Shown here: piece by piece, positions 2,321-27,104 of the stretch
Layout: every line of letters begins with the position of its first letter
Position numbering within the stretch: the stretch's first letter is position 1
From: Chloroflexota bacterium
GTDB lineage: Bacteria > Chloroflexota > Dormibacteria > Dormibacterales > Dormibacteraceae
Direction: 5' to 3'
Assembly: GCA_005879985.1 (NCBI GenBank)
Contig: VBIA01000125.1
Location: 10,861-61,139, forward strand
Length of the DNA: 50,279 nt
Notes under the pieces: model-generated
Database searches by the model: none
Seen by the model: only the letters and a program-made list of their open reading frames with translations
Told to the model about the DNA's origin: nothing
Made by a program: the position numbers and the translations under genes

Positions 2321-5300
2321 TTGGGATGCGACGACCGTAGGGCTGGAGACGCAGGCATCGCATCAGGGGCCCCACCTAGTAGTTGGCGTGACAATTACGC
2401 CGTGCTCTTCGGCCGCGAAGGCGAGGTACGGGTGGTGGGCCAGGCGCTGGCGGCGGCGCGCGTGGGCAAGAGCACCCGACTCGTCATTCGGGGCGAGCCA
2501 GGCATCGGCAAGTCGGCGCTGCTCGAGCAGGCGGTGGCCGACGCGGGGCCGATGCGGCTGCTGTCGGCGCACGGCGTCGAGTTCGAGGCGAGCGTGCCAT
2601 TCGCCGGGCTGCACGAGCTGCTTGGGCCGGCGCTTCGGCTCCTCGACAAGTTGCCGCCGGTCCACGCGGCTGCCCTGCGCTCGTCGCTCGGCCTGGGTGA
2701 GCGCATCGAGGCCGACCGGCTAATCGTCGGCGCCGCCGTGCTGGGTCTGATCTCCTCCTACGCCGAGAACGGGCCGCTGCTGGTGACAGTGGACGACGCG
2801 CACTGGCTGGACGCCGCGTCGGCCGAAGCGATCGCCTTCGCTGCCCGCCGGCTGGTGGCCGACCCTGTCGCGATCCTGGTGGCCGTGCGCGAAGGTCACG
2901 ACTCGCCCTTCCTGACGGCGGGCTGGCCTGAGGTCGAGCTGCGCGGGCTCGACCGGGACGCTGCGGCACACCTCCTCGAGGAGCTCGCGACAGTACCGAC
3001 CAGTGATTCACTCGACCGGCTGCTCCGCGCCACCGACGGCAACCCGCTGGCGCTGGTGGAGCTGGCGCGGAGCGATCCGCAACCTGCCGGCGCGCCGCAC
3101 CTCGACCTGCCGGTCGTGACCAGCCTGGAGCGGGCTTACCTGCGCCGGGCTGACGGCCTCTCGGTTGGTGCGCGGCAGGTTCTGCTCCTGATGGCCGCAT
3201 CCGGGGTCTTGGACCTGGGGCTCATGCGCCGCGCCGCGGCCGCCCTCGAGATCGGGGAAAAGGCCGTGGAGGAGGCTGAGGCGGCCGGCTCGCTGCTCCG
3301 GGTGAGCGGCGATCACGCCGACTTCGTCCATCCCCTCGCGCGGGCTGCGATCTACCACGCTGCGTCCCCCGCACAGCGCCGCGCCGCGCATGGCGCCCTG
3401 GCCGGCGCAATGGTCGGCGCCGACGACCTTGACCGGCGCGCCTGGCACCTGGCGGGCGCCACGACAGGCTGGGACGCCGAGGCCGCAGGCGCGCTGGCGC
3501 AGGCCGCGCAGCGGGCCCGCGAGAGCACCGCCTACAGCGCTGCCGCCGCTGCCCTCGCCGAGTCAGCCCGACTCACGGAGGATCTGAGCCTTCGCTCCGA
3601 TCGGCTCTTCAGGGCCGCCGAGAACGCCTGGCTCGGCGGCGACGCTGCCCGCTCCATCGGGCTGCTTGCGGCGGCCAGAAAGCTGACGAATTCGACCGTG
3701 GCGTTGGTCGACATCGACAGCCTGGACGGACACATCGCCATGCGGCGCGGCTCAGTGATCGAGGGCTACCGCACGCTCACGACGGCCGCCGCCACGATCG
3801 AGGCGGTGGATCGGCTGAAGGCGGTCCGCATCCTGGCCGACGCGGCGCTGTCCACGATCTGGGCCGGGCAGCCTGACGAGATGCGCGTGGCCGCGACCAG
3901 AGCAATGCAACTGCTCGAGAAGGGAGATCCGCCCGAGCCGGCGGTGTTCGCGCACGTTTCGTACGGCGCGCTGGCGATCCTTGCGGGCCACGGCTCCGAT
4001 GGGGCGCGGCGGCTCCACGAAAGCGTCGCGCTCTTCGGCAAGGTACCGGCCGAGAGCGTCGATCCGCTGCTGCTGATGTGCACTGGCATAGCGGGCCTGT
4101 TTCTGCGTGAAGCGCAGGTTGGGCGCGAGCTGCTGGATCGGGCACTTAGGCAGGCGCGTGAGCACGCCCCGACCGCAGCGCTGCCGATGGTCCTCTTCAT
4201 GCTCGGACGCGATGACGCGGCCACCGACCATTGGGCCATGGCGCGGGCGCAGTACGAGGAGTCGGAGCGCGTCGCGCGCGAAACGACGCAGTTCACGTGG
4301 CTGGCGGGGGCTGTCGCAGGCCTTGCCTGGCTGGACGCGCTCGAGGGCCACGCGGAGGAGTGCCGGACACATGCAGCAGAGGCCCGGCAGGTGTCGGAGC
4401 AGTACGGCATGGGGTTCTTCAAGGCGTGGTCGATGATCGCCCTGGGCCAGTTGGAGCTAGGCCTCGGCAACCCGCAGGCGGCGATGACGCACTTCGCCGA
4501 ATGCACCCATTTCCTGAAGGAGCTGGCGATCGACGACCCTGATCTTTCGCCCGCCCCGGACATCGTGGACGCGCTTGTCCGCCTCGGCCGAGTCCCCGAA
4601 GCACAGGCCATCAGCGACGAATACACGCGGCGCGCTGAGGAGAAGGGCTTGCCCTTCGCCCTCGCCCGCGCCGCACGCGCACGTGCGCTTCTCGCGGACG
4701 ACCGCGCGTTCGCCGCGGAGTTCGAAGCCGCGCTGCGCCATCACGAGAGCACGCCTGACGTGTTCGAGGGAGCCAGAACGCGCCTCTACTACGGCGAGCG
4801 GCTCCGCAGGACGCGGCGGCGCGTCGACGCCAGGAAGCAGCTGCGAGCCGCGCTCAATTCTTTCGATCAGCTGGGCGCCGCCACCTGGTCCGAGCGCGCC
4901 CTGGCAGAGCTCGAGGCCAGCGGAGAGACCGCCCGAGTTCGCGACGACCCCCATCGGCAGCAGCTGACACCGCAGGAGCTGCAGGTCGCCCTCATCCTGG
5001 CCGAGGGTTCAACCACGCGCGAGGCGGCGACCAAGCTGTACTTGAGCCCGAAGACGGTCGAATACCACCTGCGCCATGTCTACGACAAGCTCGAGGTTCG
5101 CACCCGCGACGACCTGCGCGCGGCCCTGCTGGAACAGACACGGCCGGTGAGCACGCGCAAAGCGCTGATGTTCACGGACCTCGCAGGCTCCACGGCGCTG
5201 GTGGAGGCGATCGGCGATGCCGCGTGGCACAACCTGAGCGTCTGGCTGGACGGCGAGCTGCGCAGCCGCTTTCAGGCGCATCACGGCCATGAGGTGGACC

Positions 5301-5644
5301 ACGCAGGCGATGGGTTTTTCGTGCTGTTCGGCTCGGCGCGCGATGCTGTCGACTGCGCCATCGACGTGCAGCGCCGGCTCCTGACCCACCGGCGCCTGCA
5401 TGGCTACGCGCCGCAGCTGCGAATCGGTATCCACGTGGGCGAAGTGAGCGACTCGGGTTCGGCGGTCCGGGGCGCCGCGGTGCACCGCGCTGCGCGGCTC
5501 TGCGCGGCGGCCGGGCCGGACGAGATCCTCGCGTCGCGCGAAGTGCTGGAGTCGAGCGGCAGGCCGCTGACCGGGCTCAAGACGATGGCGCTGAAGGGCA
5601 TGAAGGATAAGGTCGAGGCCGCCGAGATCAGCTGGCAGGGTTAG
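2321..5644 (+). CDS. large ATPase regulator with LuxR HTH and C-terminal class III cyclase-like domain
   Basis: This LuxR-family ATPase (LAL/STAND type) has a Walker A GEPGIGKS at residues 58-65, a Walker B LLVTVDDAHWLD near 153, a long TPR-like helical middle, a LuxR helix-turn-helix near 881-935 (LTPQELQ to TREAATKLYLSPKTVEYHLR) and a class III cyclase domain from ~947 to the end. The two metal aspartates are present (FTDLAGST, GDGFFVLF). The substrate-selecting Lys position reads Asp (EVDHAGD) and the transition-state Asn reads His (AVHRAARL), so cyclase activity is doubtful and the domain may only bind nucleotide. The first in-frame ATG is 2321, but GTG 2402, just before LFGRE, fits the family better. 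It probably activates nearby genes, but the target is unknown. Confidence 0.87.
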   Translation: MGCDDRRAGDAGIASGAPPSSWRDNYAVLFGREGEVRVVGQALAAARVGKSTRLVIRGEPGIGKSALLEQAVADAGPMRLLSAHGVEFEASVPFAGLHELLGPALRLLDKLPPVHAAALRSSLGLGERIEADRLIVGAAVLGLISSYAENGPLLVTVDDAHWLDAASAEAIAFAARRLVADPVAILVAVREGHDSPFLTAGWPEVELRGLDRDAAAHLLEELATVPTSDSLDRLLRATDGNPLALVELARSDPQPAGAPHLDLPVVTSLERAYLRRADGLSVGARQVLLLMAASGVLDLGLMRRAAAALEIGEKAVEEAEAAGSLLRVSGDHADFVHPLARAAIYHAASPAQRRAAHGALAGAMVGADDLDRRAWHLAGATTGWDAEAAGALAQAAQRARESTAYSAAAAALAESARLTEDLSLRSDRLFRAAENAWLGGDAARSIGLLAAARKLTNSTVALVDIDSLDGHIAMRRGSVIEGYRTLTTAAATIEAVDRLKAVRILADAALSTIWAGQPDEMRVAATRAMQLLEKGDPPEPAVFAHVSYGALAILAGHGSDGARRLHESVALFGKVPAESVDPLLLMCTGIAGLFLREAQVGRELLDRALRQAREHAPTAALPMVLFMLGRDDAATDHWAMARAQYEESERVARETTQFTWLAGAVAGLAWLDALEGHAEECRTHAAEARQVSEQYGMGFFKAWSMIALGQLELGLGNPQAAMTHFAECTHFLKELAIDDPDLSPAPDIVDALVRLGRVPEAQAISDEYTRRAEEKGLPFALARAARARALLADDRAFAAEFEAALRHHESTPDVFEGARTRLYYGERLRRTRRRVDARKQLRAALNSFDQLGAATWSERALAELEASGETARVRDDPHRQQLTPQELQVALILAEGSTTREAATKLYLSPKTVEYHLRHVYDKLEVRTRDDLRAALLEQTRPVSTRKALMFTDLAGSTALVEAIGDAAWHNLSVWLDGELRSRFQAHHGHEVDHAGDGFFVLFGSARDAVDCAIDVQRRLLTHRRLHGYAPQLRIGIHVGEVSDSGSAVRGAAVHRAARLCAAAGPDEILASREVLESSGRPLTGLKTMALKGMKDKVEAAEISWQG

Positions 5645-17036: not shown

Positions 17037-18047
17037 CTACTCGACGAGCTTGGTGCGCTGGTCGAGGTAGATGAGCAGCCCAAGGGCGGGCGCGATGACG
17101 AGCGCGAGGCCGGCGGTCACGACGAGCAGCAAGACCTGCGTGGCGTACGGCGCGATGGCCTGCGAGATCGTTAGCTGTCCGGGCAGCACGTAGGGCGACT
17201 GCGCGAACGCCCAGGCGAAAACCATGGACCCGACCGCCGCCACAGTCAGAAGGCGGTAGAAGCGGAAGATGCCGCGCCACAGCAGGAACGCGACCAGCGG
17301 GGTGGCGAGCATCGTGACGAGCGCGAAGGGCAGGCCGGGGCCCGCCAGCATCGATCGGAAGAGCGTAGGGCTCTGCACGCCGATGGCGACCAGCGCCGCG
17401 GTGCCTGTCGCGATGAGGACAATCGCGGCGACCACCGCCCGGCGGCGAAAGTAGGCGGTCATCTCGGCGTCGCCAACTCGCCGAGCGTCGCCGACCAGGA
17501 ATGAGGCTCCGCTGAATGCCGTGGCGGCGACCGATACAACCCCGAACCCGATCGACATTGGGCTGAACCAGACCTCCCAAACGGACCGGCTTGGCTCGAG
17601 CAACCCGACGCGGCCAGACGCGATCGCGCCGAGGCAGGCGGCGAAGAAGAACGGGGTGAGGATCGACGAGATGCCGAAGACGAGGTCGGCCGCGCGATGC
17701 GTGCGCGGATCCTCGGCGATGTGCCGGAAAGCAAAGAAGGCGCCGCGCAGGATCAGGCCGAGGAGCGCGAGCGCGAAGAGCAGGTACAGGCTGGCGAACG
17801 CCGACTGGAACAGGAGTGGGAATCCGGTCCAGCAAACGACGATGCTCAGGACGAGCCACACGTTGTTGACCTCCCACACCGGGGCCATCGCGAGGTCGAT
17901 GAGGTGGCGGGCTTTGTGGCCGGTCGGGCTGTTGCCCGCGAGCAGATCCCAGATGCCGGCGCCGAAATCCACTCCGCCGGCGGTGCTGTAGGCCGTGATG
18001 CCGAGCAGCAGCACCAGCGCGACAGTGTTGGGAAGCAGGGCGCTCAT
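17037..18047 (-). CDS. cydB: cytochrome bd ubiquinol oxidase subunit II
   Basis: The 336-residue membrane protein has about eight to nine hydrophobic helices. Subunit II landmarks are TAYSTAGGVDFGAGIWDLL at the N-terminus, APVWEVNNVWL in helix 2 and FFFAACLGAI midway. CydB supports the heme-bearing subunit I in quinol oxidation and O2 reduction to water without proton pumping, typically at low oxygen. ATG 18047 is chosen because it gives the canonical N-terminus and overlaps the cydA TGA (ATGA). The frame stays open ~115 codons upstream, but that part is antisense-like low-complexity and lies inside cydA. Confidence 0.9.
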   Translation of the reverse strand: MSALLPNTVALVLLLGITAYSTAGGVDFGAGIWDLLAGNSPTGHKARHLIDLAMAPVWEVNNVWLVLSIVVCWTGFPLLFQSAFASLYLLFALALLGLILRGAFFAFRHIAEDPRTHRAADLVFGISSILTPFFFAACLGAIASGRVGLLEPSRSVWEVWFSPMSIGFGVVSVAATAFSGASFLVGDARRVGDAEMTAYFRRRAVVAAIVLIATGTAALVAIGVQSPTLFRSMLAGPGLPFALVTMLATPLVAFLLWRGIFRFYRLLTVAAVGSMVFAWAFAQSPYVLPGQLTISQAIAPYATQVLLLVVTAGLALVIAPALGLLIYLDQRTKLVE

Positions 18048-19429
18048 GCCCGTGGTCCGTAGGGGACGCGAACCTCCGGCTCTCTCGCCTCGGTCGCATC
18101 CTCGCGCCGCCACCTCGCCGCGAGCTTCAGCAGCAGCGTGATGAAGAAGTACGCGATCAGCGCGTACACGACGACCAGTACCGAGAGCATCGTCCACACG
18201 AACGCCGCGGGCGCGTCGGTCACGGCGTCGGAGACGCGCATCACGTCGTAGACGATCCACGGCTGCCGCCCGACCTCGGTGGTGACCCATCCCGACTCGA
18301 CCGCCAGGTACGACCCGATGCCGGCGAGCGCGGCGAGCCTGTAGAACAAGACGCTGTCGGGCAGCTTGCGCCGCCGCGCCAGGATCCAGAGGTACCACGC
18401 CGAGAGTGCCGCGCCGACAGTGCCGAGGCCGACCATCAGGTCGAAGGCGAGATGGGCGATGTTGCTCTCGACGATGTTCGGCCGAGCGTCGGGCGCGAAC
18501 GAGGTCAGCCCGCGAATCACCGCGTTCGGCGAATAGCCGACCAGGATCGAGTCGAGCGACGGAAGCTCGACCCCGAGGTGGATGGCGCCCGAGCTGTCGA
18601 GCACGCCGCCGACGACCTCAGGGTTGTGGTCGCGCGTCGTCCACGTGATCTCCATCGCGGCGAACTTGGCCGGTTGGTCCTGCACGAGTGCGCGCGCGGC
18701 CAGGTCACCGACCACCAACTGCACGGGCGTCAGCGCAGCGGCGACCGTGAATGGGACCGCGAACGCGAGCCGCTGGTAGTGGTCTCGTTTGCCCCGCAGC
18801 CAGGCGACCGCGTACACCGACGCGATCACGAATCCCGCGGTGATGTAGATCGCGAGCAGGAAGTGCCAGAACTCGTAGGCGAGCGCCGGCGTGAAGAGCG
18901 CGGCCATGGTATCGACGCTCACCAGCCGGCCCGCGTCGATCGTCACCCCGCCCGGCGTGTTCATCCAGGAATTGGCCGATAGCACCCCGAAAGCGCCGAG
19001 CAGGCCGGCGGGCGGGAGAGCGAGGCCGGTGAGGAAATGCGCCCGCGGCGAAAGGCGCTTCCAGCCGTACAGGTAGATGCTGATGAAGATCGCCTCCATG
19101 AAGAAGGCGAGGCCTTCGATCGCGAAGCCCAGGCCGAACGCAGCGCCGAAGCGGCCCATCATGCGCGGCCACAAGATGCCGAACTCGAATGAGAGGATCG
19201 TCCCGGTCACTGCGCCGACGGCGAACTGCACGGCCATCACCACCGACCAGCGCCGCGCGATCTTCAGCGCGATGGGGTCCTTGCGCCAGATCCCGATTCC
19301 TTCCATCAGGAGCGTCAGCGTCGGCATCGCCACGCCGAGCGGCACCAGGAGGATGTGCGACGCGAGCGTAAACGCCATCTGGATGCGGCTCGGCAGCAGC
19401 GCCTCGCCGGCCAGCCAGAGGGCAGCCAC
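18044..19429 (-). CDS. cydA: cytochrome bd ubiquinol oxidase subunit I
   Basis: The 461-residue protein binds hemes b558, b595 and d. Visible landmarks are the first-helix His in RIQMAFTLASHILL, the LAYEFWHFLLAIYI helix with its heme His, the Q-loop start KFAAMEITWTTRDHNPE, and the conserved GRQPWIVYDVMR late in the protein. The Q-loop is short, as in the S-type (CIO-like) subfamily. Start GTG 19429 gives an N-terminus like those enzymes. The gene diverges from the Crp/Fnr regulator across 72 bp, which suggests oxygen- or redox-responsive control, although no clear FNR/CRP palindrome is visible there. cydDC export genes are not in the window. Confidence 0.92.
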   Translation of the reverse strand: MAALWLAGEALLPSRIQMAFTLASHILLVPLGVAMPTLTLLMEGIGIWRKDPIALKIARRWSVVMAVQFAVGAVTGTILSFEFGILWPRMMGRFGAAFGLGFAIEGLAFFMEAIFISIYLYGWKRLSPRAHFLTGLALPPAGLLGAFGVLSANSWMNTPGGVTIDAGRLVSVDTMAALFTPALAYEFWHFLLAIYITAGFVIASVYAVAWLRGKRDHYQRLAFAVPFTVAAALTPVQLVVGDLAARALVQDQPAKFAAMEITWTTRDHNPEVVGGVLDSSGAIHLGVELPSLDSILVGYSPNAVIRGLTSFAPDARPNIVESNIAHLAFDLMVGLGTVGAALSAWYLWILARRRKLPDSVLFYRLAALAGIGSYLAVESGWVTTEVGRQPWIVYDVMRVSDAVTDAPAAFVWTMLSVLVVVYALIAYFFITLLLKLAARWRREDATEAREPEVRVPYGPRA

Positions 19430-19501: not shown

Positions 19502-20170
19502 ATGAAGCAGCCGGATGACGCGCTCGCCGTCCTCCGCCGGTCGCGCCTCTTCGACAGCGCCTCCCCTGGAGATCTGGCTGCCCTGCTGAAGGAATCACGC
19601 TGGCGGAAGTACCCGGCCGACTCCTACCTCTTTCGCGAGGGCGACCCCGCCGACCACCTGCTCATCGTCGCGAGCGGCGAGGTGAAGATCTCGCGGGCCA
19701 CGGAGTCGGGCAGCGACGTGGTGTTCGCGGTGCTCGGCCCGGGCGACGCGCTGGGCGAGCTGGGCGCTCTGGAAGAAGGTGCGTCACGAAGCGCTGACGC
19801 CAGGGCGCTTTCGGAGGCCGAGTGCCTGGTCATCCACCGGCCCGCGCTGGTGCGGTTCCTGACGGCCCACCCCGCGGCGATGTGGGGCGTGGTCAACGTG
19901 CTGACGTCCTACATCCGTACCAAGGACGAGGCGTTCGTCGACCTGGCGGTTCGCGACATCCCCGGGCGCGTGGCGCGCAAGCTCCTCGACCTGGCCGGGA
20001 CGCAGAGCACGTTCGCGCTGTCGCAGTCGACGCTCGCCGGCCTGGTAGGCGCCAGCCGCGAGAACGTCAACCGCGCCCTTTCGCGCTTCGCCTCGCTCGG
20101 CTACATCAGCCTCGACCGCGGCCGAATCACGCTGCTGCGGCCAGACGAGCTGCGGCGACGCGGGGAGTGA
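19502..20170 (+). CDS. Crp/Fnr-family transcriptional regulator
   Basis: The 222-residue protein has a cyclic-nucleotide-binding beta-roll (YLFREGDPADHLLIVASGEV; GDALGELGALEEG) and a C-terminal winged helix (TLAGLVGASRENVNRALSRF followed by GYISLDRGRITLL). No N-terminal cysteine cluster is present, so it is not an FNR-type iron-sulfur sensor. GELGALEEG followed by SRSADARA resembles a degenerate phosphate-binding cassette, so cAMP binding is possible. ATG 19502 is chosen; the open frame upstream to 19355 runs back across the divergent promoter. It likely regulates cydAB, and two cyclase-domain proteins in the window make a cAMP link worth testing. Confidence 0.86.
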   Translation: MKQPDDALAVLRRSRLFDSASPGDLAALLKESRWRKYPADSYLFREGDPADHLLIVASGEVKISRATESGSDVVFAVLGPGDALGELGALEEGASRSADARALSEAECLVIHRPALVRFLTAHPAAMWGVVNVLTSYIRTKDEAFVDLAVRDIPGRVARKLLDLAGTQSTFALSQSTLAGLVGASRENVNRALSRFASLGYISLDRGRITLLRPDELRRRGE

Positions 20171-20255: not shown

Positions 20256-20393
20256 ATGAGCGAGAACTACCACGAGTACGTGCGCAGGATGGCCCAGGTC
20301 CGAGCGGGGCGAGAGGGAAACCGGCCGCTGCACCGCCAGCTCGTCGAGCTGCTGCAGTTCGTGCTGGAATGCGAAGCCGCGTGGCTTGACTGA
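20256..20393 (+). CDS. 45-residue peptide upstream of the YcaO-TfuA genes; candidate modified-peptide precursor or small partner
   Basis: A short ORF of 45 codons starts at ATG 20256, 8 nt after a perfect AAGGAGGT (20240-20247), far stronger than the Shine-Dalgarno of most neighbours. The product begins MSENYHEYVRRMAQVR, has a charged middle, then a helical hydrophobic stretch QLVELLQFVLE and ends CEAAWLD, with its single Cys near the C-terminus. A longer in-frame start at 20193 exists but lacks a ribosome site. It is the first gene of a same-strand run that includes YcaO and TfuA. It has no recognisable family; precursor status is inferred from position and size only. Confidence 0.6.
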   Translation: MSENYHEYVRRMAQVRAGREGNRPLHRQLVELLQFVLECEAAWLD

Positions 20394-20413
20394 ATCCAGC
20401 CCACGAATACAAT
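20386..20413 (+). promoter_or_regulatory. sigma-70-like promoter TTGACT-16-TACAAT
   Basis: The -35 box TTGACT (20386-20391) and -10 box TACAAT (20408-20413) are separated by 16 nt, each differing from consensus at one position. The -35 box overlaps the stop codon of the 45-residue ORF. Transcripts would begin near 20420 and carry the 92-residue gene, YcaO and TfuA. Confidence 0.65.
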
Positions 20414-20473
20414 TCGGCCACCCGCTGCTGAGGCGGCGTCCGGCTTGCATCGAGCAGGAGGTGAAGACAAGCC

Positions 20474-20752
20474 ATGGCTGAGGAACCGCTCCACGCTGGG
20501 GTTCTGATCTCGGGCGCAACGGGCCGAGTCTTTTGGATCCGCGACGACGATGACACGCCGAAGGAGATCCTGCGCGAAGAACAGGAAGACCTGCTCGAGG
20601 GGGCCCAAGCCTTCGCGGAAAGACGGGGCAACCAGTTTATGACGATGCCCCTGCCTGAGGAGCTGTTCCAACTGCTCGACGCAGCGTTCGGACCGCTCGC
20701 TCCTAACGGCGTCGTTCACCACAAGACTTTCCACATGGGCGGGCGCTCCTAG
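20474..20752 (+). CDS. 92-residue acidic protein of the YcaO-TfuA locus, function unknown
   Basis: ATG 20474 follows AGGAGGTGA (20456-20464) at optimal spacing. The protein starts MAEEPLHAGVLISGATGRVF, has an acidic WIRDDDDTPKEILREEQEDL segment, a helix-rich centre and a His-containing tail GVVHHKTFHMGGRS. It has no signal peptide, no membrane segment and no Cys. I do not recognise the family. It is the gene immediately before YcaO (14 nt gap) and has its own promoter, so it is either the substrate, a peptide-recognition partner, or an unrelated small protein. Its globular-looking body argues against a simple leader-core precursor, though the His/Thr-rich tail could be modified. Confidence 0.7.
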   Translation: MAEEPLHAGVLISGATGRVFWIRDDDDTPKEILREEQEDLLEGAQAFAERRGNQFMTMPLPEELFQLLDAAFGPLAPNGVVHHKTFHMGGRS

Positions 20753-20766
20753 CGGTCTGGCGCTGC

Positions 20767-21984
20767 ATGGGGCTGGTCAAGGCCTATCGCGCCGGAACGC
20801 ACCGTTCGGTGGCGCCTGACGAGACCGTCCGCCGGGCGTGGCGGTTGGCGCCCGTCATGGGCATCACCCGCATAGGCAATGTCACGGGCCTGGACGTGGT
20901 CGGCGTTCCGGTCGTCATGGTCATCCGGCCCAACGCGCGCTCGCTGGCGGTGGCACAAGGCAAAGGCCTCACCCTGGCCGCGGCCAGGGCGTCCGGCCTG
21001 ATGGAGTCCATAGAGAGCTACCACGCCGAGACGATCACGCTGCCGCTGCGCTACTGCAGCCTCAACGAGCTGCGTTATGCCCATCGAGTCGTGGATCCGT
21101 CGCAGTGGCCGGCCGTGGCGACAAGCTCGTTTCACCCGAATTTGCGGCTGCTCTGGTGCGAAGGCAGGGATCTCATGGACGGCGAGCCCGCCTTCGTCCC
21201 TTACGAGCTGGTCCACACCGACTACACGTGGCCCCAGCCGGCCGGCAGCGGATGCTTCGCAGCTTCGTCTAACGGACTTGCATCAGGCAACCATATGCTC
21301 GAGGCGATCAGCCACGCGATCTGTGAAGTCGTCGAGCGCGACGCCAACACGCTCTGGATGCTCCGTCAGCCAGGCGATCGTGAGTCTCGGCAGCTTGACC
21401 TGTCCACGATCGACGACGTGGCTTGCGCGGAGGTCATCGGCAAGTTCGAGGCAGCAGGCCTCATGGTCAGCGCGTGGGACATGACCACAGACATCGACAT
21501 CGCGTCCTTCTACTGTGTCGTCTTCAATGCTTCCGAAGATCCAACCCGCTGGTTGCCGCCGGCGGCTGGGGCTGGCAGCCACCCATCGCGCGCGATCGCG
21601 CTTCTGCGCGCCCTGACGGAGGCCGCGCAGACGAGGCTCGTGCAGATATCGGGGTCGAGGGATGACGTCGGCCGGGACAGCTATACGCGCCATCGCTATG
21701 CCGGAGTCCTGGACGAACTGCGTGCTCACGCCGGGCGGCCCGGACCGCGCAACTTTCGCGACGCACCCGACTGCGATGCCGACACTTTTGAGGATGACGT
21801 CGCCTGGCTTTTGACCCGCCTGCGGAAGGCCGGTGTGAATCACGTGGTCGCCATCGACCTCACCAACGCCGCGTTCAAGCTCCCGGTAGTGCGTGTCTTG
21901 ATACCCGGCCTCGATGGACCGCATGAAGTGCCCGGTTACGTTGCCGGCGTGCGCGCGCAGGCCATGCTGGCCGCGCCGTCGTGA
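20767..21984 (+). CDS. YcaO-domain ATP-dependent cyclodehydratase/thioamide-forming enzyme
   Basis: The 405-residue protein has YcaO ATP/Mg-binding signatures in order: ARASGLMESIESYHAE (~75-90), EAISHAICEVVERDA (~179-193) and RALTEAAQTRLVQISGSRDD (~281-300). YcaO enzymes phosphorylate a peptide amide oxygen. With TfuA, the known outcome is replacement by sulfur to give a thioamide, as in methyl-coenzyme M reductase and thioamitides. Its ATG lies 14 nt after the 92-residue gene, and its end overlaps the TfuA start by 4 nt (GTGA), so the two are translationally coupled. No E1-like or ocin-ThiF partner gene is nearby, which favours thioamidation over azoline formation. Confidence 0.9.
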   Translation: MGLVKAYRAGTHRSVAPDETVRRAWRLAPVMGITRIGNVTGLDVVGVPVVMVIRPNARSLAVAQGKGLTLAAARASGLMESIESYHAETITLPLRYCSLNELRYAHRVVDPSQWPAVATSSFHPNLRLLWCEGRDLMDGEPAFVPYELVHTDYTWPQPAGSGCFAASSNGLASGNHMLEAISHAICEVVERDANTLWMLRQPGDRESRQLDLSTIDDVACAEVIGKFEAAGLMVSAWDMTTDIDIASFYCVVFNASEDPTRWLPPAAGAGSHPSRAIALLRALTEAAQTRLVQISGSRDDVGRDSYTRHRYAGVLDELRAHAGRPGPRNFRDAPDCDADTFEDDVAWLLTRLRKAGVNHVVAIDLTNAAFKLPVVRVLIPGLDGPHEVPGYVAGVRAQAMLAAPS

Positions 21985-23336
21985 ACGCTGTCATCTTCAC
22001 GGGGCCCACCCTGAGCGCGGCGGAGGCGCAGCGTGAGCTCGAGGCCACGTACCTCCCTCCGGCCGCAGAAGGCGACGTATACCGCACGGCACGGAAAGGC
22101 CCCCAGGTGATCGGCATCATCGATGGTCATTTCGAGCGCCAGCCGGCGGTCTGGCACAAAGAGATCCTCTGGGCGATGAGTCGCGGCATTCATGTCTTCG
22201 GCGCGGCGAGCATGGGCGCACTGCGCGCCGCTGAGCTCGAGGTTTTTGGCATGGAAGGCGTGGGTTCGATCTTCGAGGCTTACCGCACCGGCGCGTTGGG
22301 GGACGACGACGAGGTCGCCGTGGCGCAGGCTCCCGCCGAGCTTGGCTTCCGCGCCCTCTCCGACGCCATGGTCGACATTCGTCACACGCTCGGCCTGGCT
22401 GTCCAGGCAAGCGTTCTGACGGCACCGATCGCCGCGGCGGTCGAGTCCATCGCGAAGGCTCTCTTCTATCCAGACCGCAGATACGCACGTGTGGTGCAGG
22501 ACGCCCGCGAGGTGGGGCTGCCTCCCGCCGAGCTCGCAGCACTGGAGGCCTGGCTGCCGGTGGGCAGGGCCTCACTCAAGCGCGAGGACGCGCTGGCGAT
22601 GCTGCGTACCATCCGAGATCGGCTCGCATCCGGGCTCGCGCCGAAGGCCGTGCGCTATGCGTTCGAGAACTCCTCGATGTGGGAGGCGGCTTGGCGCCTG
22701 GCCGGGGAGTCAGACGAATCTGATGTCATCCTGCTCGACTCGGTCCTCGACGAGCTGCGTCTCGAGGGCGAGGCCTACCTTCGCGTGCAACAGGCCGCGC
22801 TGACACGAGTTCTCGCCATCAAACATTCCTATGTGCAAGGCCTTGCGCAGGGCGGGCCTCAGCGAGTGTTCGCGGAGAGGCGCCTCTGGAGCCGGCACAA
22901 CGTCACCAATGCCGATGACCGCCGGCGCTGGATGGGGGCGAACCATGTCGACGACGCCCGCCTGCAGGGCCTGCTCGAGGATGAGGCTCGTGTCGGCTGG
23001 ATCACTAGCCTGGCCGGGCTCGACGCCAAGGGCTACATCCTGGATCAGCTCCGGGTGTCGGGAGATTATCCGCGGCTGGTCGAGCGACTGCGGGCCAAGC
23101 AGGCGGCCCTCGCCGCGCAAGGGATGGAAGACCCAACGCTCGAGGCCGCAGGACTGGCAGTGGACGAGCTGCACAGGTGGTATTTCGAGGAACGGCTCGG
23201 CCGCGCTGTGCCTGCCGACCTGTATGCGTACGTCGCCAACGTGGGCTACACCGGACTCGCTGCGTTCCATGCATCTGTCCTGCGCGAGTTCTGCTTCGTC
23301 AACGGGAGCCCGGTCACGACGCGTACCCAGGACTAG
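21981..23336 (+). CDS. TfuA-like protein with long C-terminal extension
   Basis: The 451-residue protein starts at GTG 21981 inside the YcaO stop. The N-terminal ~150 residues show the TfuA core: VIFTGPTLSAAEA, QVIGIIDGHFERQPAVWHKE, and ASMGALRAAELEVFGMEGVG, followed by YRTGALGDDDEVAV. TfuA is the usual partner of YcaO in thioamide formation and is thought to aid sulfur delivery. The remaining ~280 residues are helical and charged (WRLAGESDESDVILLDSVLD; RRWMGANHVDDARLQGLLED), with no family I recognise; they may recognise substrate. Nothing about its composition differs from its neighbours. Confidence 0.87.
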   Translation: MNAVIFTGPTLSAAEAQRELEATYLPPAAEGDVYRTARKGPQVIGIIDGHFERQPAVWHKEILWAMSRGIHVFGAASMGALRAAELEVFGMEGVGSIFEAYRTGALGDDDEVAVAQAPAELGFRALSDAMVDIRHTLGLAVQASVLTAPIAAAVESIAKALFYPDRRYARVVQDAREVGLPPAELAALEAWLPVGRASLKREDALAMLRTIRDRLASGLAPKAVRYAFENSSMWEAAWRLAGESDESDVILLDSVLDELRLEGEAYLRVQQAALTRVLAIKHSYVQGLAQGGPQRVFAERRLWSRHNVTNADDRRRWMGANHVDDARLQGLLEDEARVGWITSLAGLDAKGYILDQLRVSGDYPRLVERLRAKQAALAAQGMEDPTLEAAGLAVDELHRWYFEERLGRAVPADLYAYVANVGYTGLAAFHASVLREFCFVNGSPVTTRTQD

Positions 23337-23349
23337 GATTCGCGGCATC

Positions 23350-26300
23350 GTGGCCGCGGTCAGGGCGCTGTGTCCCGTGCTCGTCGGCAGAGAGGCCGAG
23401 CTCATCGAACTCGAGGACGCGCTGCTCGCGGCGGCGCGTGGCGAGGGTCGTATGGTGCTGATCGCGGGCGAGGCCGGCATCGGCAAGACACGGCTCGTGA
23501 GCGAGGCGGGCGACCGAGCCCGGGGCCTGCGCATGAAGGTGTTTACCGGGGCATGCTCCGAGGCTCCGATGGCGATGCCGTATCTGCCGTTCCTGGAGGC
23601 ACTTGGTAACTACGTCGCCCGCGCGGATCTGCAGACGCTCCGAGCCAACCTCGGGCGATCCGCGGTGGCCCTGGGCAATCTCTTTCCGCGCCTTGGTACG
23701 TTGCCGGCCGAGGCGGACGATCCCAATCACGCGAAGCTGCGCCTCTTCGAAGGCATCCTCCAACTGCTCGAATCAGTGGCCGCGGAAGCCGGCCTCCTGC
23801 TCGTGATCGAGGATCTGCACGGTGCTGACGCGTCGACCCGGGAGCTGATCGACTACCTGGCGCGCCGCGTGCAGGGCACACGCATGCTGCTGCTGGTTAC
23901 ATACCGAGCCGAGGAGCTCGGCCGCCACCACCCGTTGCTCCACGATTTGCAGGCCTGGCGGCGCAACGCCCTGGCCCAGGTCATAGAGCTGAACTCCCTT
24001 GATGTGCAAGAGGTCGCTTCGGTGGTCGAGGCCATCCTCGACGAGCCGGGCAGCCAAGAAATCAGCAAGTTGCTTCTCGAGCGCAGCGACGGCAACCCGT
24101 TCGTGATTGAAGAGCTGATCAAAGAGGCGCTTGAGGCGGGCGATATCTTTCGTACAGAGCGTGGCTGGGAACGCAAAGAGCTGAGCGAGCTCCGGCTGCC
24201 CCGCACAGTGCGCGACACGATCCTCCTGCGCTTGGACCGGCTCAGCCCGGAGCAGGTTGGCATGCTGCGCGCGGCCGCGGTTCTCGGCGACAGGTTCACC
24301 GACGCGACCCTTATCGCCGTCGCGGGCCAAGACCTGAGCGCGATCCGGGAGGCGCTGCGGGCTTGCGTCCAGCAGCAGCTCGTGCGTGAGGAAGCTCACG
24401 CCGGCGGCACCTATCACTTTCGCCACTCGCTCACGAGGGACGCGGTTTATGAAGACCTGGTCTCGACGGAGCGGCAGGAGTTCCACAGCCGAGCCGCTGA
24501 CGCGTTGTCAAATCAGCCAGGGTCCGGCGCGGTTGACATCGCGCGCCACCTCATCGCCGCGGGCCGCACTGACGAGGCCGTGCCGGTGTGCTTGCAGGCC
24601 GCGGGCGAGGCCGAGGAAACGTGGTCGATGACCGACGCAGCCGATCTCTACGAACAAGCCCTGGCGCACATACCGGAACCGCTGCGCCGTGCCTCCGCGC
24701 TCCAGCGCCTGGGCACCTGCCTCCTTTACGCCAACCGGCCGGGTGCGGCGGGTGCGGCGGAGCGGTGCCTGGAAGAGGCGGTCACGCTGTTCGACGCTGC
24801 CGGCCGCGAGGTCGAAGCGGCGCGCGTGCGGGTCGCCCTTTCCGACTCGTATTACCCGCGCATGCGACACGGTCCCGCAGAAGCACAGCTGCACAGGGCG
24901 ATCGCGATTCTGGAGCCGTTGGGCCCGAGTCCGGAGCTCGCGGACGCCTATAACCACCTTGCGTTCTTCCGCATCGTGCAGATCGACGGACCCTCGTGCG
25001 CTGCCTGGGCGAAGAAGGCGCTGGCGGCTGCGGAAGCCACGGGCGCGGGCATGGCCCTCGTCCGTGCGCAGGACCTCTTCGGCCTTGGCCTGGCATGCGA
25101 GGGGTTCGTCGACGAGGCCATCGAATGGCTCGACCGTTCAGCCGAAGGTGCGATCTCGCGCGGTTGGAGCTGGTTCGCCCTGGCGGCCATGAACAACACG
25201 CTTCTGTTCTTGCCCCTGGAGCGGTGGGACGAGGCGCCCGCGCGGGTCGAACGCATGCGGGCGGTCGACCCGCACCAATTCGCGACCTTGAACAGCCAGG
25301 CGATGCTGGCGATCGGGCAGGGCGTGCCCGCGCGCGCAGCCGATATCGCTGAGATGGCCAGGCAGATGTCCGCTAATCGCGATTGGACGGTCGGCGTGCT
25401 GTGGACGAACTGCACGCTCGTGCACGCCTATACCGCCCTGGGCCGGCTCGACGATGCTCGCCGGGCGCTGCCGGCTGCCCGCCTCGCGGTGGACAAGCAG
25501 GACCAGCTCTCGCGCTGGGGAGCGGAGCTGACGCTGGCCGTGGCAGGAGGCGCAGATCAGGAAGAGGCGGTGGCGGGGCAGCCGGTCGACAACCTGGTGA
25601 CCGGCTGGCCATGGGCGCTGGAGCGTGCGCTTGCGCTGCAGGCGCTGGTCGACCTGGGCGCTGTTGACCGCGTCGAGGCCCAGTTGCGGGATGCGCCAGA
25701 CACGGGCTTCTTCCTCGCGGTCCGGATCGACGTTGCTCGCGCAAGACAGGACTACGGCACCGTGTTGGCAACCGCGCCGCCGTTTGTCGAGCTGGCGAGC
25801 CGCGTAGGTGCCTGGTTCTTCGCCAACCGGGCGCTGCTGGCACTCGCCGAGGCGGCGGCGCGATCAGGCACCCGCGAAGCCGCAGCCTTGATCTTGGAGC
25901 AGGTCGTGAGCAGCGCGCAGGAGCGCGAGCACAGGGGCCAGCAAAGCCAGGCTGTGGAGTTGGCGAGAAAGCTGGACATCCCTCTGCACGTCCCGGAGCC
26001 GCCGGCTCACGCCGCAGAGCCGATGGCCACCGGTGAACGCTTTGTCACCGTGCTGTTCGCCGACATCCGCGGCTACACCGAGATGAGCCGCTCCACGGCG
26101 CCGGCCGTGATGGCGGACAAGATTGCGTCGCTGCAGCGGTCAGCAGCTCGTGAGGTGGCGCGGCATCACGGAACGGTCGACAAGTTCGCCGGCGATGCCG
26201 TGATGGCGACCTTCAACGTCAGCGGCCAGTCTGTGGATCACGCGAGCCATGCGCTTCGCGCGGCGGTGGCCATGAGGGATCGCGCGCGCTACATGGGCAT

Positions 26301-26544
26301 CGCGCTCGGCATCGGCATCGCCACCGGGCCGGCCATTGTCGGACGCCTTAGCAAGAACGCGAATCTCAGCGTCCTCGGCGAGACGACCAACCTCGCGTCG
26401 CGGCTGCAGGCGCAGGCAGGGCCCAACCAGATCGTGCTCAGTGAGGAGGCATGGAAGCGGCTCCGCGATCGGGGCGACGCCCCGCTCGAGATGCTCGAGC
26501 TCAAGGGGTTCACGGATCCGGTGCCCGCATATCGCATGGTCTGA
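23350..26544 (+). CDS. AAA/STAND ATPase regulator with TPR-like repeats and C-terminal class III adenylate cyclase
   Basis: The 1064-residue protein starts at GTG 23350 (VAAVRALCPVLVGREAEL), 13 nt after TfuA. The order is Walker A GEAGIGKT at ~40-47, Walker B LLLVIEDLHGAD near 150, helical repeats to ~890, then a class III cyclase. The cyclase has FADIRGYT (metal Asp), DKFAGDAVMATF (Lys plus second Asp) and LGETTNLASRL (Thr, transition-state Asn and Arg), so all catalytic residues are present, and Lys/Thr suit adenine. No DNA-binding HTH is visible, unlike the paralogue-like protein at 2321-5644. It may make cAMP in response to a signal read by the ATPase/repeat part. The frame continues open far upstream inside TfuA; that part is not coding. 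Confidence 0.88.
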   Translation: MAAVRALCPVLVGREAELIELEDALLAAARGEGRMVLIAGEAGIGKTRLVSEAGDRARGLRMKVFTGACSEAPMAMPYLPFLEALGNYVARADLQTLRANLGRSAVALGNLFPRLGTLPAEADDPNHAKLRLFEGILQLLESVAAEAGLLLVIEDLHGADASTRELIDYLARRVQGTRMLLLVTYRAEELGRHHPLLHDLQAWRRNALAQVIELNSLDVQEVASVVEAILDEPGSQEISKLLLERSDGNPFVIEELIKEALEAGDIFRTERGWERKELSELRLPRTVRDTILLRLDRLSPEQVGMLRAAAVLGDRFTDATLIAVAGQDLSAIREALRACVQQQLVREEAHAGGTYHFRHSLTRDAVYEDLVSTERQEFHSRAADALSNQPGSGAVDIARHLIAAGRTDEAVPVCLQAAGEAEETWSMTDAADLYEQALAHIPEPLRRASALQRLGTCLLYANRPGAAGAAERCLEEAVTLFDAAGREVEAARVRVALSDSYYPRMRHGPAEAQLHRAIAILEPLGPSPELADAYNHLAFFRIVQIDGPSCAAWAKKALAAAEATGAGMALVRAQDLFGLGLACEGFVDEAIEWLDRSAEGAISRGWSWFALAAMNNTLLFLPLERWDEAPARVERMRAVDPHQFATLNSQAMLAIGQGVPARAADIAEMARQMSANRDWTVGVLWTNCTLVHAYTALGRLDDARRALPAARLAVDKQDQLSRWGAELTLAVAGGADQEEAVAGQPVDNLVTGWPWALERALALQALVDLGAVDRVEAQLRDAPDTGFFLAVRIDVARARQDYGTVLATAPPFVELASRVGAWFFANRALLALAEAAARSGTREAAALILEQVVSSAQEREHRGQQSQAVELARKLDIPLHVPEPPAHAAEPMATGERFVTVLFADIRGYTEMSRSTAPAVMADKIASLQRSAAREVARHHGTVDKFAGDAVMATFNVSGQSVDHASHALRAAVAMRDRARYMGIALGIGIATGPAIVGRLSKNANLSVLGETTNLASRLQAQAGPNQIVLSEEAWKRLRDRGDAPLEMLELKGFTDPVPAYRMV

Positions 26545-26804: not shown

Positions 26805-27104
26805 ATGGAAGCGAGACGGACGTTTCAGGGATCGAAGAGCTACAGGCAGCTGTGGATCATTCTGGCGGCGCTCATGGCGGCGGCGGTCCTCGGTGTTGGC
26901 GGCGCATTCGTCGCCAGCGGCATGACCTCCAAGGCTCCGCAGATCGTCAAGACGTACGCGGCCCCCGGCACCGTTCTGAACCAGGACAACTACAGGAGCA
27001 CCGTGCCGCACGCGGCTCCGGGCACCGTCCTGAACCAGGACAACGACAGGGGTAGCGTGCCGAGCGTCAACAGCCCCAGCAAGCACAAGCAGACCGCCTT
27101 CTAG
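26805..27104 (+). CDS. small membrane-anchored protein with duplicated APGTVLNQDN motif
   Basis: The 99-residue protein has a basic N-terminus (MEARRTFQGSKSYRQ), one hydrophobic helix (LWIILAALMAAAVLGVGGAF, ~16-35) and an external tail in which APGTVLNQDN occurs twice, 18 residues apart, separated by YRSTVPHA. It ends in a basic SPSKHKQTAF. A purine-rich GAGGAAAT precedes ATG 26805. I recall similar exported tails as unnamed proteins in high-GC soil bacteria but cannot name a family. It is followed directly by a strong terminator, so it is the last gene of the plus-strand run starting at 20256. Confidence 0.7.
   Translation: MEARRTFQGSKSYRQLWIILAALMAAAVLGVGGAFVASGMTSKAPQIVKTYAAPGTVLNQDNYRSTVPHAAPGTVLNQDNDRGSVPSVNSPSKHKQTAF

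Follow-up and report, generated by a model that had tools for sequence, protein, structure and literature searches.

A candidate signal-coupled thioamidation cassette around a YcaO-TfuA pair in a Chloroflexota genome

The window analysed here is a stretch of 50,279 nt of contig VBIA01000125.1 (GCA_005879985.1), from a Chloroflexota bacterium of soil, and all coordinates count from its first letter. It carries neighbouring ycaO and tfuA genes, preceded by a gene for a small protein of 92 amino acids (aa) and followed by one for P0005, a large ATPase-cyclase. With moderate confidence, we read these four genes as a signal-coupled thioamidation cassette, in which YcaO-TfuA would thioamidate the 92-aa protein and the ATPase-cyclase would act as sensor. 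The first-pass annotation of this DNA had proposed a candidate undescribed YcaO-TfuA thioamidation locus with two small upstream genes and a cyclase. The comparisons presented below support this in part: the locus does seem undescribed, and one dedicated small gene and the cyclase stay with the pair. They also add two elements, namely the linkage of a CRP-type regulator to the locus, and the place of this gene set in a multi-phylum clade which combines a small hairpin protein with a kinase, cyclase or ATPase protein.

The gene set and its co-inheritance are directly established from the distribution among relatives. A genome collection was scanned with TfuA, yielding 80 loci, and presence or absence was counted in 42 genomes of the order. 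Four of the 42 encode TfuA, and the 92-aa family and close P0005 orthologs (69-94% identity) occur in exactly those four, whereas cyclase paralogs of 39-55% identity are more widespread. Across the phylum TfuA is rare (4 of 400 sampled genomes). The whole gene order is kept in three Chloroflexi soil genomes (L002-L004), cassette order between genera being retained at 58-69% identity, and none of the close relatives lacks both small open reading frames (ORFs) and the cyclase. The ordered set first suggested also included a 45-aa ORF located upstream, and this part did not hold: its family is present in 21 of the 42 genomes, 17 of them devoid of TfuA, hence it is a lineage-wide gene and was discarded as a cassette member. 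In G035 (locus L099) the 45-aa gene and crp adjoin with no cassette between them; the cassette separates these two in G036 and G037, and the window genus has crp first, then the 45-aa gene and the cassette. The regulator gene precedes the cassette in genus g1 and follows it in g12, linked in both orders. Taken together, distribution and gene orders define a cassette of four genes (92-aa gene, ycaO, tfuA and cyclase) with crp as a linked neighbour.

Concerning the enzyme pair, YcaO and TfuA domains are encoded side by side, with the 4-nt gene overlap (GTGA) that had been annotated, and both proteins have homologues of solved structure, archaeal and other (PDB 6pe3 for YcaO, and 6xp8 for TfuA residues 2-213). 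Thioamidation is the chemistry expected from family membership. The scores fall short of the equivalogs for McrA-glycine thioamidation (TIGR03266, 218.7 of 365 bits; NF033432, 221.5 of 235.2 bits). Compared with known TfuA-associated YcaO thioamidation (McrA-glycine, as well as the thioviridamide-like, thiovarsolin and std clusters for ribosomally synthesized and post-translationally modified peptides, RiPPs), the window shares the adjacent, overlapping genes and the homology to the McrA-thioamidating pair, but lies below the McrA equivalog cut-offs and lacks adjoining RiPP export or protease genes, showing instead a small partner, predicted to be folded, and an ATPase-cyclase. ThiS-family carriers are encoded elsewhere in the genome, which matches the sulfide route described for TfuA, where a ThiS-type carrier is used (PMC13063428). 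The window TfuA is 451 aa long, against 217 aa for the solved protein, and the extra C-terminal region of ~235 aa, without Pfam match, is common to most of the 80 related loci.

The co-occurrence, position and fast evolution of the 92-aa protein suggest that it is the substrate. Between the window and L002 it is 64% identical, versus 88-94% for YcaO, TfuA and the cyclase, and between genera (window and L003) these values drop to 33% and 60-69%, respectively. Its gene is the fastest evolving of the cassette in the window pairs, with ratios of nonsynonymous to synonymous substitution rates (dN/dS) of 0.6-0.76 compared to 0.12-0.22. The best-kept part between genera is an N-terminal hairpin (GVLISGATGRVFWIRDDD; GILMRGASGHLFFMRDGD in L003), with 14/30 as opposed to 3/24 and 9/30 for the rest. 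The AlphaFold2 (AF2) model, derived from four sequences, shows a bb-a-b-a-b order with pLDDT 85.6 and pTM 0.76. No Pfam or NCBIfam match was obtained for the protein, a fold search against the PDB and viral models gave nothing significant, and plasmid searches with the small proteins returned no match. The gene lies beside ycaO-tfuA where a RiPP precursor would be expected and has a variable C-terminal part, yet its product is predicted to be folded.

A possible, albeit unlikely, alternative is a thioamidated RiPP natural product, whose 92-aa precursor would be modified in its C-terminal part, which proteins encoded elsewhere would then cleave off and export; the cyclase would control expression alone. 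Characterised bacterial YcaO-TfuA pairs do yield RiPPs (PMC8120280, PMC13174530), the C-terminal part is more variable than the hairpin, and the small protein of the sister locus L063 bears a Cys-rich tail, DICTCVLAHWFMC; against it, the window has neither a protease nor an exporter gene next to the cassette, the compact AF2 fold takes in most of the C-terminal part, and in the wider hairpin family described below a C-terminal G..CYLVNL..I segment ranks with the most conserved stretches, contrary to what a variable core would show. The predicted fold would also suit a second scheme, which we judge improbable, where the target of YcaO-TfuA is a housekeeping protein encoded elsewhere and the 92-aa protein has an accessory role, as adaptor, regulator or chaperone. 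Other YcaO enzymes do modify McrA (PMC5589413) and the ribosomal protein uL16 (PMC13063428); nevertheless, ycaO genes of the uL16 type have no TfuA nearby (PMC13063428), the cassette is patchy (4/42 genomes), which a housekeeping modification would not be, and the 92-aa gene, being the fastest evolving in window pairs, is unlike a conserved adaptor. Finally, the bb-a-b-a-b order resembles a beta-grasp, the window protein has a GG near its C terminus, and weak Foldseek matches are mostly ubiquitin-like, all of which would fit a ThiS-like sulfur carrier for TfuA. This candidate was set aside as very improbable on the basis of fold scores (TM-scores of ~0.2-0.3, E >0.09) and C termini, since the GG is missing from the ends of the L002, L003 and L004 proteins (LGRSAQEKSP, WGRRLHR and WGRRLSR, respectively), and true ThiS-family genes exist elsewhere in the genome.

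The signalling side of the cassette is given by P0005, which contains AAA_16 and Guanylate_cyc domains with weak TPR matches. As had been annotated, its gene starts 13 nt past the TfuA stop and its catalytic residues are complete: the two metal aspartates, the purine-binding lysine of adenylate cyclase type and the Asn/Arg pair align to solved adenylate cyclases, and the motifs LFADIRG, VDKFAGDAVM and TTNLASR align to 1wc0, as expected for a class III adenylate cyclase. The linked regulator aligns to mycobacterial CRP 3d0s (5e-33) and presents a cyclic nucleotide-binding domain with phosphate-binding cassette plus a Crp-type helix-turn-helix, so that by sequence it qualifies as a cyclic AMP (cAMP) receptor protein. 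Read against 3d0s, its pocket and helix motifs are those expected of a cAMP receptor.

In the proposed mechanism, YcaO would use ATP to activate an amide in the backbone of the 92-aa protein encoded beside it, and TfuA would bring in the sulfide, donated by a ThiS-type carrier in its thiocarboxylated form, so that a thioamide results. The N-terminal hairpin is the likely recognition element, and the variable C-terminal part the likely modified one. The AAA-TPR-cyclase would sense a stimulus, possibly the modified 92-aa protein itself, and make cAMP to be read by the CRP-type regulator. Substrate identity, chemistry, modification site and direction of signalling are, in this scheme, what we infer.

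The wider context comes from a profile (alignment A3) made from small ORFs preceding ycaO in other phyla, which recovers 21 loci and 22 proteins (L010 has two). Most A3 proteins display a hairpin, a helix and the conserved C-terminal G..CYLVNL..I segment; the members tested show no Pfam match and two sub-threshold NCBIfam matches, and no database name was found for the family. In the YcaO tree the four Chloroflexota rows lie beside the Terriglobia locus L063 (support 99/95), within a 28-row multi-phylum clade (89/94) that contains every A3 profile locus. A hairpin protein directly precedes ycaO in 26/26 assessable clade loci plus the window, L009 being cut off and the small proteins of L011 and L029 being recognised by reading; outside the clade, the pattern is displayed by small ORFs before ycaO in L077 alone, and in background ORFs by 18/8313. 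Within ~6 kb, AAA_16-type proteins appear in 21/27 clade loci versus 4/53 outside, kinases in 17/27 versus 4/53, and any kinase, AAA, cyclase or TIR-AAA protein in 25/27 (both misses are short contigs), counts that are not phylogenetically independent. Architectures comprise kinase-AAA-TPR, kinase-TPR, kinase-cyclase-AAA (L011) and TIR-AAA-TPR, along with the AAA-TPR-cyclase of the window. Hence, a hairpin protein at a fixed position and a large signalling partner recur across phyla.

The window resembles the A3 loci of myxobacteria, alphaproteobacteria and acidobacteria in gene position, a similar hairpin, YcaO clade and a nearby signalling protein, but the G..CYLVNL..I ending of most A3 proteins is absent from its family. 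Homology between the two families is only suggestive; since they resemble each other in the hairpin alone, gene position and the YcaO tree carry more of the argument for a link than sequence does. P0005 also has a named relative in the TOMM kinase/cyclase fusion (TIGR03903), sharing a homologous AAA_16-TPR region (3e-58) and a location beside ycaO, although it scores 197.6 of 705.75 bits, lacks the kinase, and has its cyclase at the C terminus and not before the AAA; the related L013 and L072 proteins reach 1.6e-159 and 5.7e-141.

Several points weigh against the cassette reading and its extension to the clade. The dN/dS of the 92-aa gene is ordinary (0.17) between L003 and L004; the AF2 model, from its four sequences, has a folded-protein look unlike most RiPP precursors; the cassette is limited to four genomes of two genera; and CRP sites in the window are no commoner than chance. 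The 92-aa and A3 families can be aligned over the hairpin alone (hhalign P 0.031), shuffle tests are mixed, from 0/1000 to no signal, and the clade counts carry the non-independence noted above.

A broader and more speculative proposal, which we regard as rather unlikely, is that these loci form a widespread bacterial signalling module, where a small protein with a backbone thioamide would serve a STAND-type ATPase as ligand or as sensor subunit. The ATPase would have a kinase, cyclase or TIR output, which in the window would be cAMP read by CRP. If so, a protein thioamide would act as a signal and not as an antibiotic or housekeeping modification. Such gene sets, across several phyla, seem not to have been described previously, and in the open-access literature neither a connection of YcaO with STAND NTPases nor one of TfuA with adenylate cyclase was found as a topic. 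Few natural YcaO-TfuA substrates are known beyond methanogens and a few bacterial peptide clusters; here, candidate substrate families are named in several phyla, tied to signalling proteins instead of export machinery. Should one of them be modified, regulated small proteins would join antibiotics and housekeeping enzymes as targets of protein thioamidation.

Features of the locus are collected in the table. Both small ORFs have the strong, near-perfect Shine-Dalgarno sites that were annotated (GAAGGAGG for the 45-aa and GCAGGAGG for the 92-aa ORF) and behave as genuine genes, with the same position in three other genomes and dN/dS <1. The sigma-70-like promoter site is present as well; it sits between the two small genes, its -35 TTGACT overlapping the end of the 45-aa coding sequence. 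In 7.9 kb there are two sites of this kind where 0.4 are expected, and of the promoter elements only the -10 is common to the window and L002-L004.

Table. Features of the cassette and its flanks (window coordinates)
Feature	Position	Strand	Evidence
CRP/FNR-family regulator, linked neighbour outside the core unit	19502..20170	+	PF00027 2e-24; GELG...RSA pocket motif; HTH SRENVNR
45-aa small protein, neighbour outside the cassette	20256..20393	+	family in 21/42 genomes, 17 without TfuA; beside crp without cassette in L099
Sigma-70-like promoter site TTGACT-16-TACAAT, ahead of the four-gene unit	20386..20413	+	-10 TACAAT also in L002-L004
92-aa partner, proposed thioamidation substrate	20474..20752	+	N-terminal beta-hairpin GVLISGATGRVFWIRDDD; predicted bb-a-b-a-b fold; variable C-terminal part
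YcaO, TfuA-associated backbone-activating ATPase (by family)	20767..21984	+	PF02624 5e-83; TIGR03266 1e-64 (sub-cut-off); PDB 6pe3 8e-29
TfuA with extra ~235-aa C-terminal region	21981..23336	+	PF07812 7e-46; NF033432 8e-66 (sub-cut-off); PDB 6xp8
P0005, AAA_16 ATPase-TPR-class III adenylate cyclase, proposed sensor/output	23350..26544	+	PF13191 2.5e-26; PF00211 2.3e-16; TIGR03903 3e-58 (partial, sub-cut-off)

The closest neighbours are cydAB (cytochrome bd oxidase), the CRP regulator, DUF6855, a serine hydrolase (beta-lactamase family) and a CoA-transferase. In agreement with the first-pass annotation, no E1-like, dehydrogenase, dedicated protease or exporter gene is present among the immediate neighbours of the cassette in the window; an MFS-like ORF lies ~5 kb upstream, beyond cydAB. 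In the window and L002, the cytochrome bd oxidase genes (17037-19429) and crp are divergently oriented, and respiration may thus be a further target of CRP control. After the cyclase, positions 26805-27104 encode a protein of 99 aa that probably has a membrane segment and in which the motif AAPGTVLNQDN is repeated; an inverted repeat and a T run come next. The protein is 85% identical in L002, only its N terminus being matched in L003/L004, and the two weak CRP-like sites upstream of it are not above chance. A second large ORF (2321-5644, 1107 aa) has a start resembling an AAA-type regulator.

Among the other loci, L113, from another Chloroflexota family, has a YcaO-TfuA pair 35-39% identical to that of the window and, by ORF reading, two tandem precursor-like genes (products ending in GHGVSVGVVVSF and GHGVMVGVIVSF), a B12-type radical SAM, an M16-type peptidase and an MFS gene, with no match to the window cyclase; it is likely a RiPP cluster. 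Hairpin proteins are duplicated as two overlapping genes in Corallococcus L010 (4004-4746) and as two copies within one protein in Archangium L061 (3573-4736). The loci L040 (labelled Anaerolineae) and L038 (labelled Alphaproteobacteria) are nearly identical, probably through a binning error in one genome. Outside the clade, the proteobacterial YcaO-TfuA loci L046, L055, L030, L076, L042, L053, L051, L059 and L074 have a different class III cyclase-like gene of ~600 aa within a few kb.

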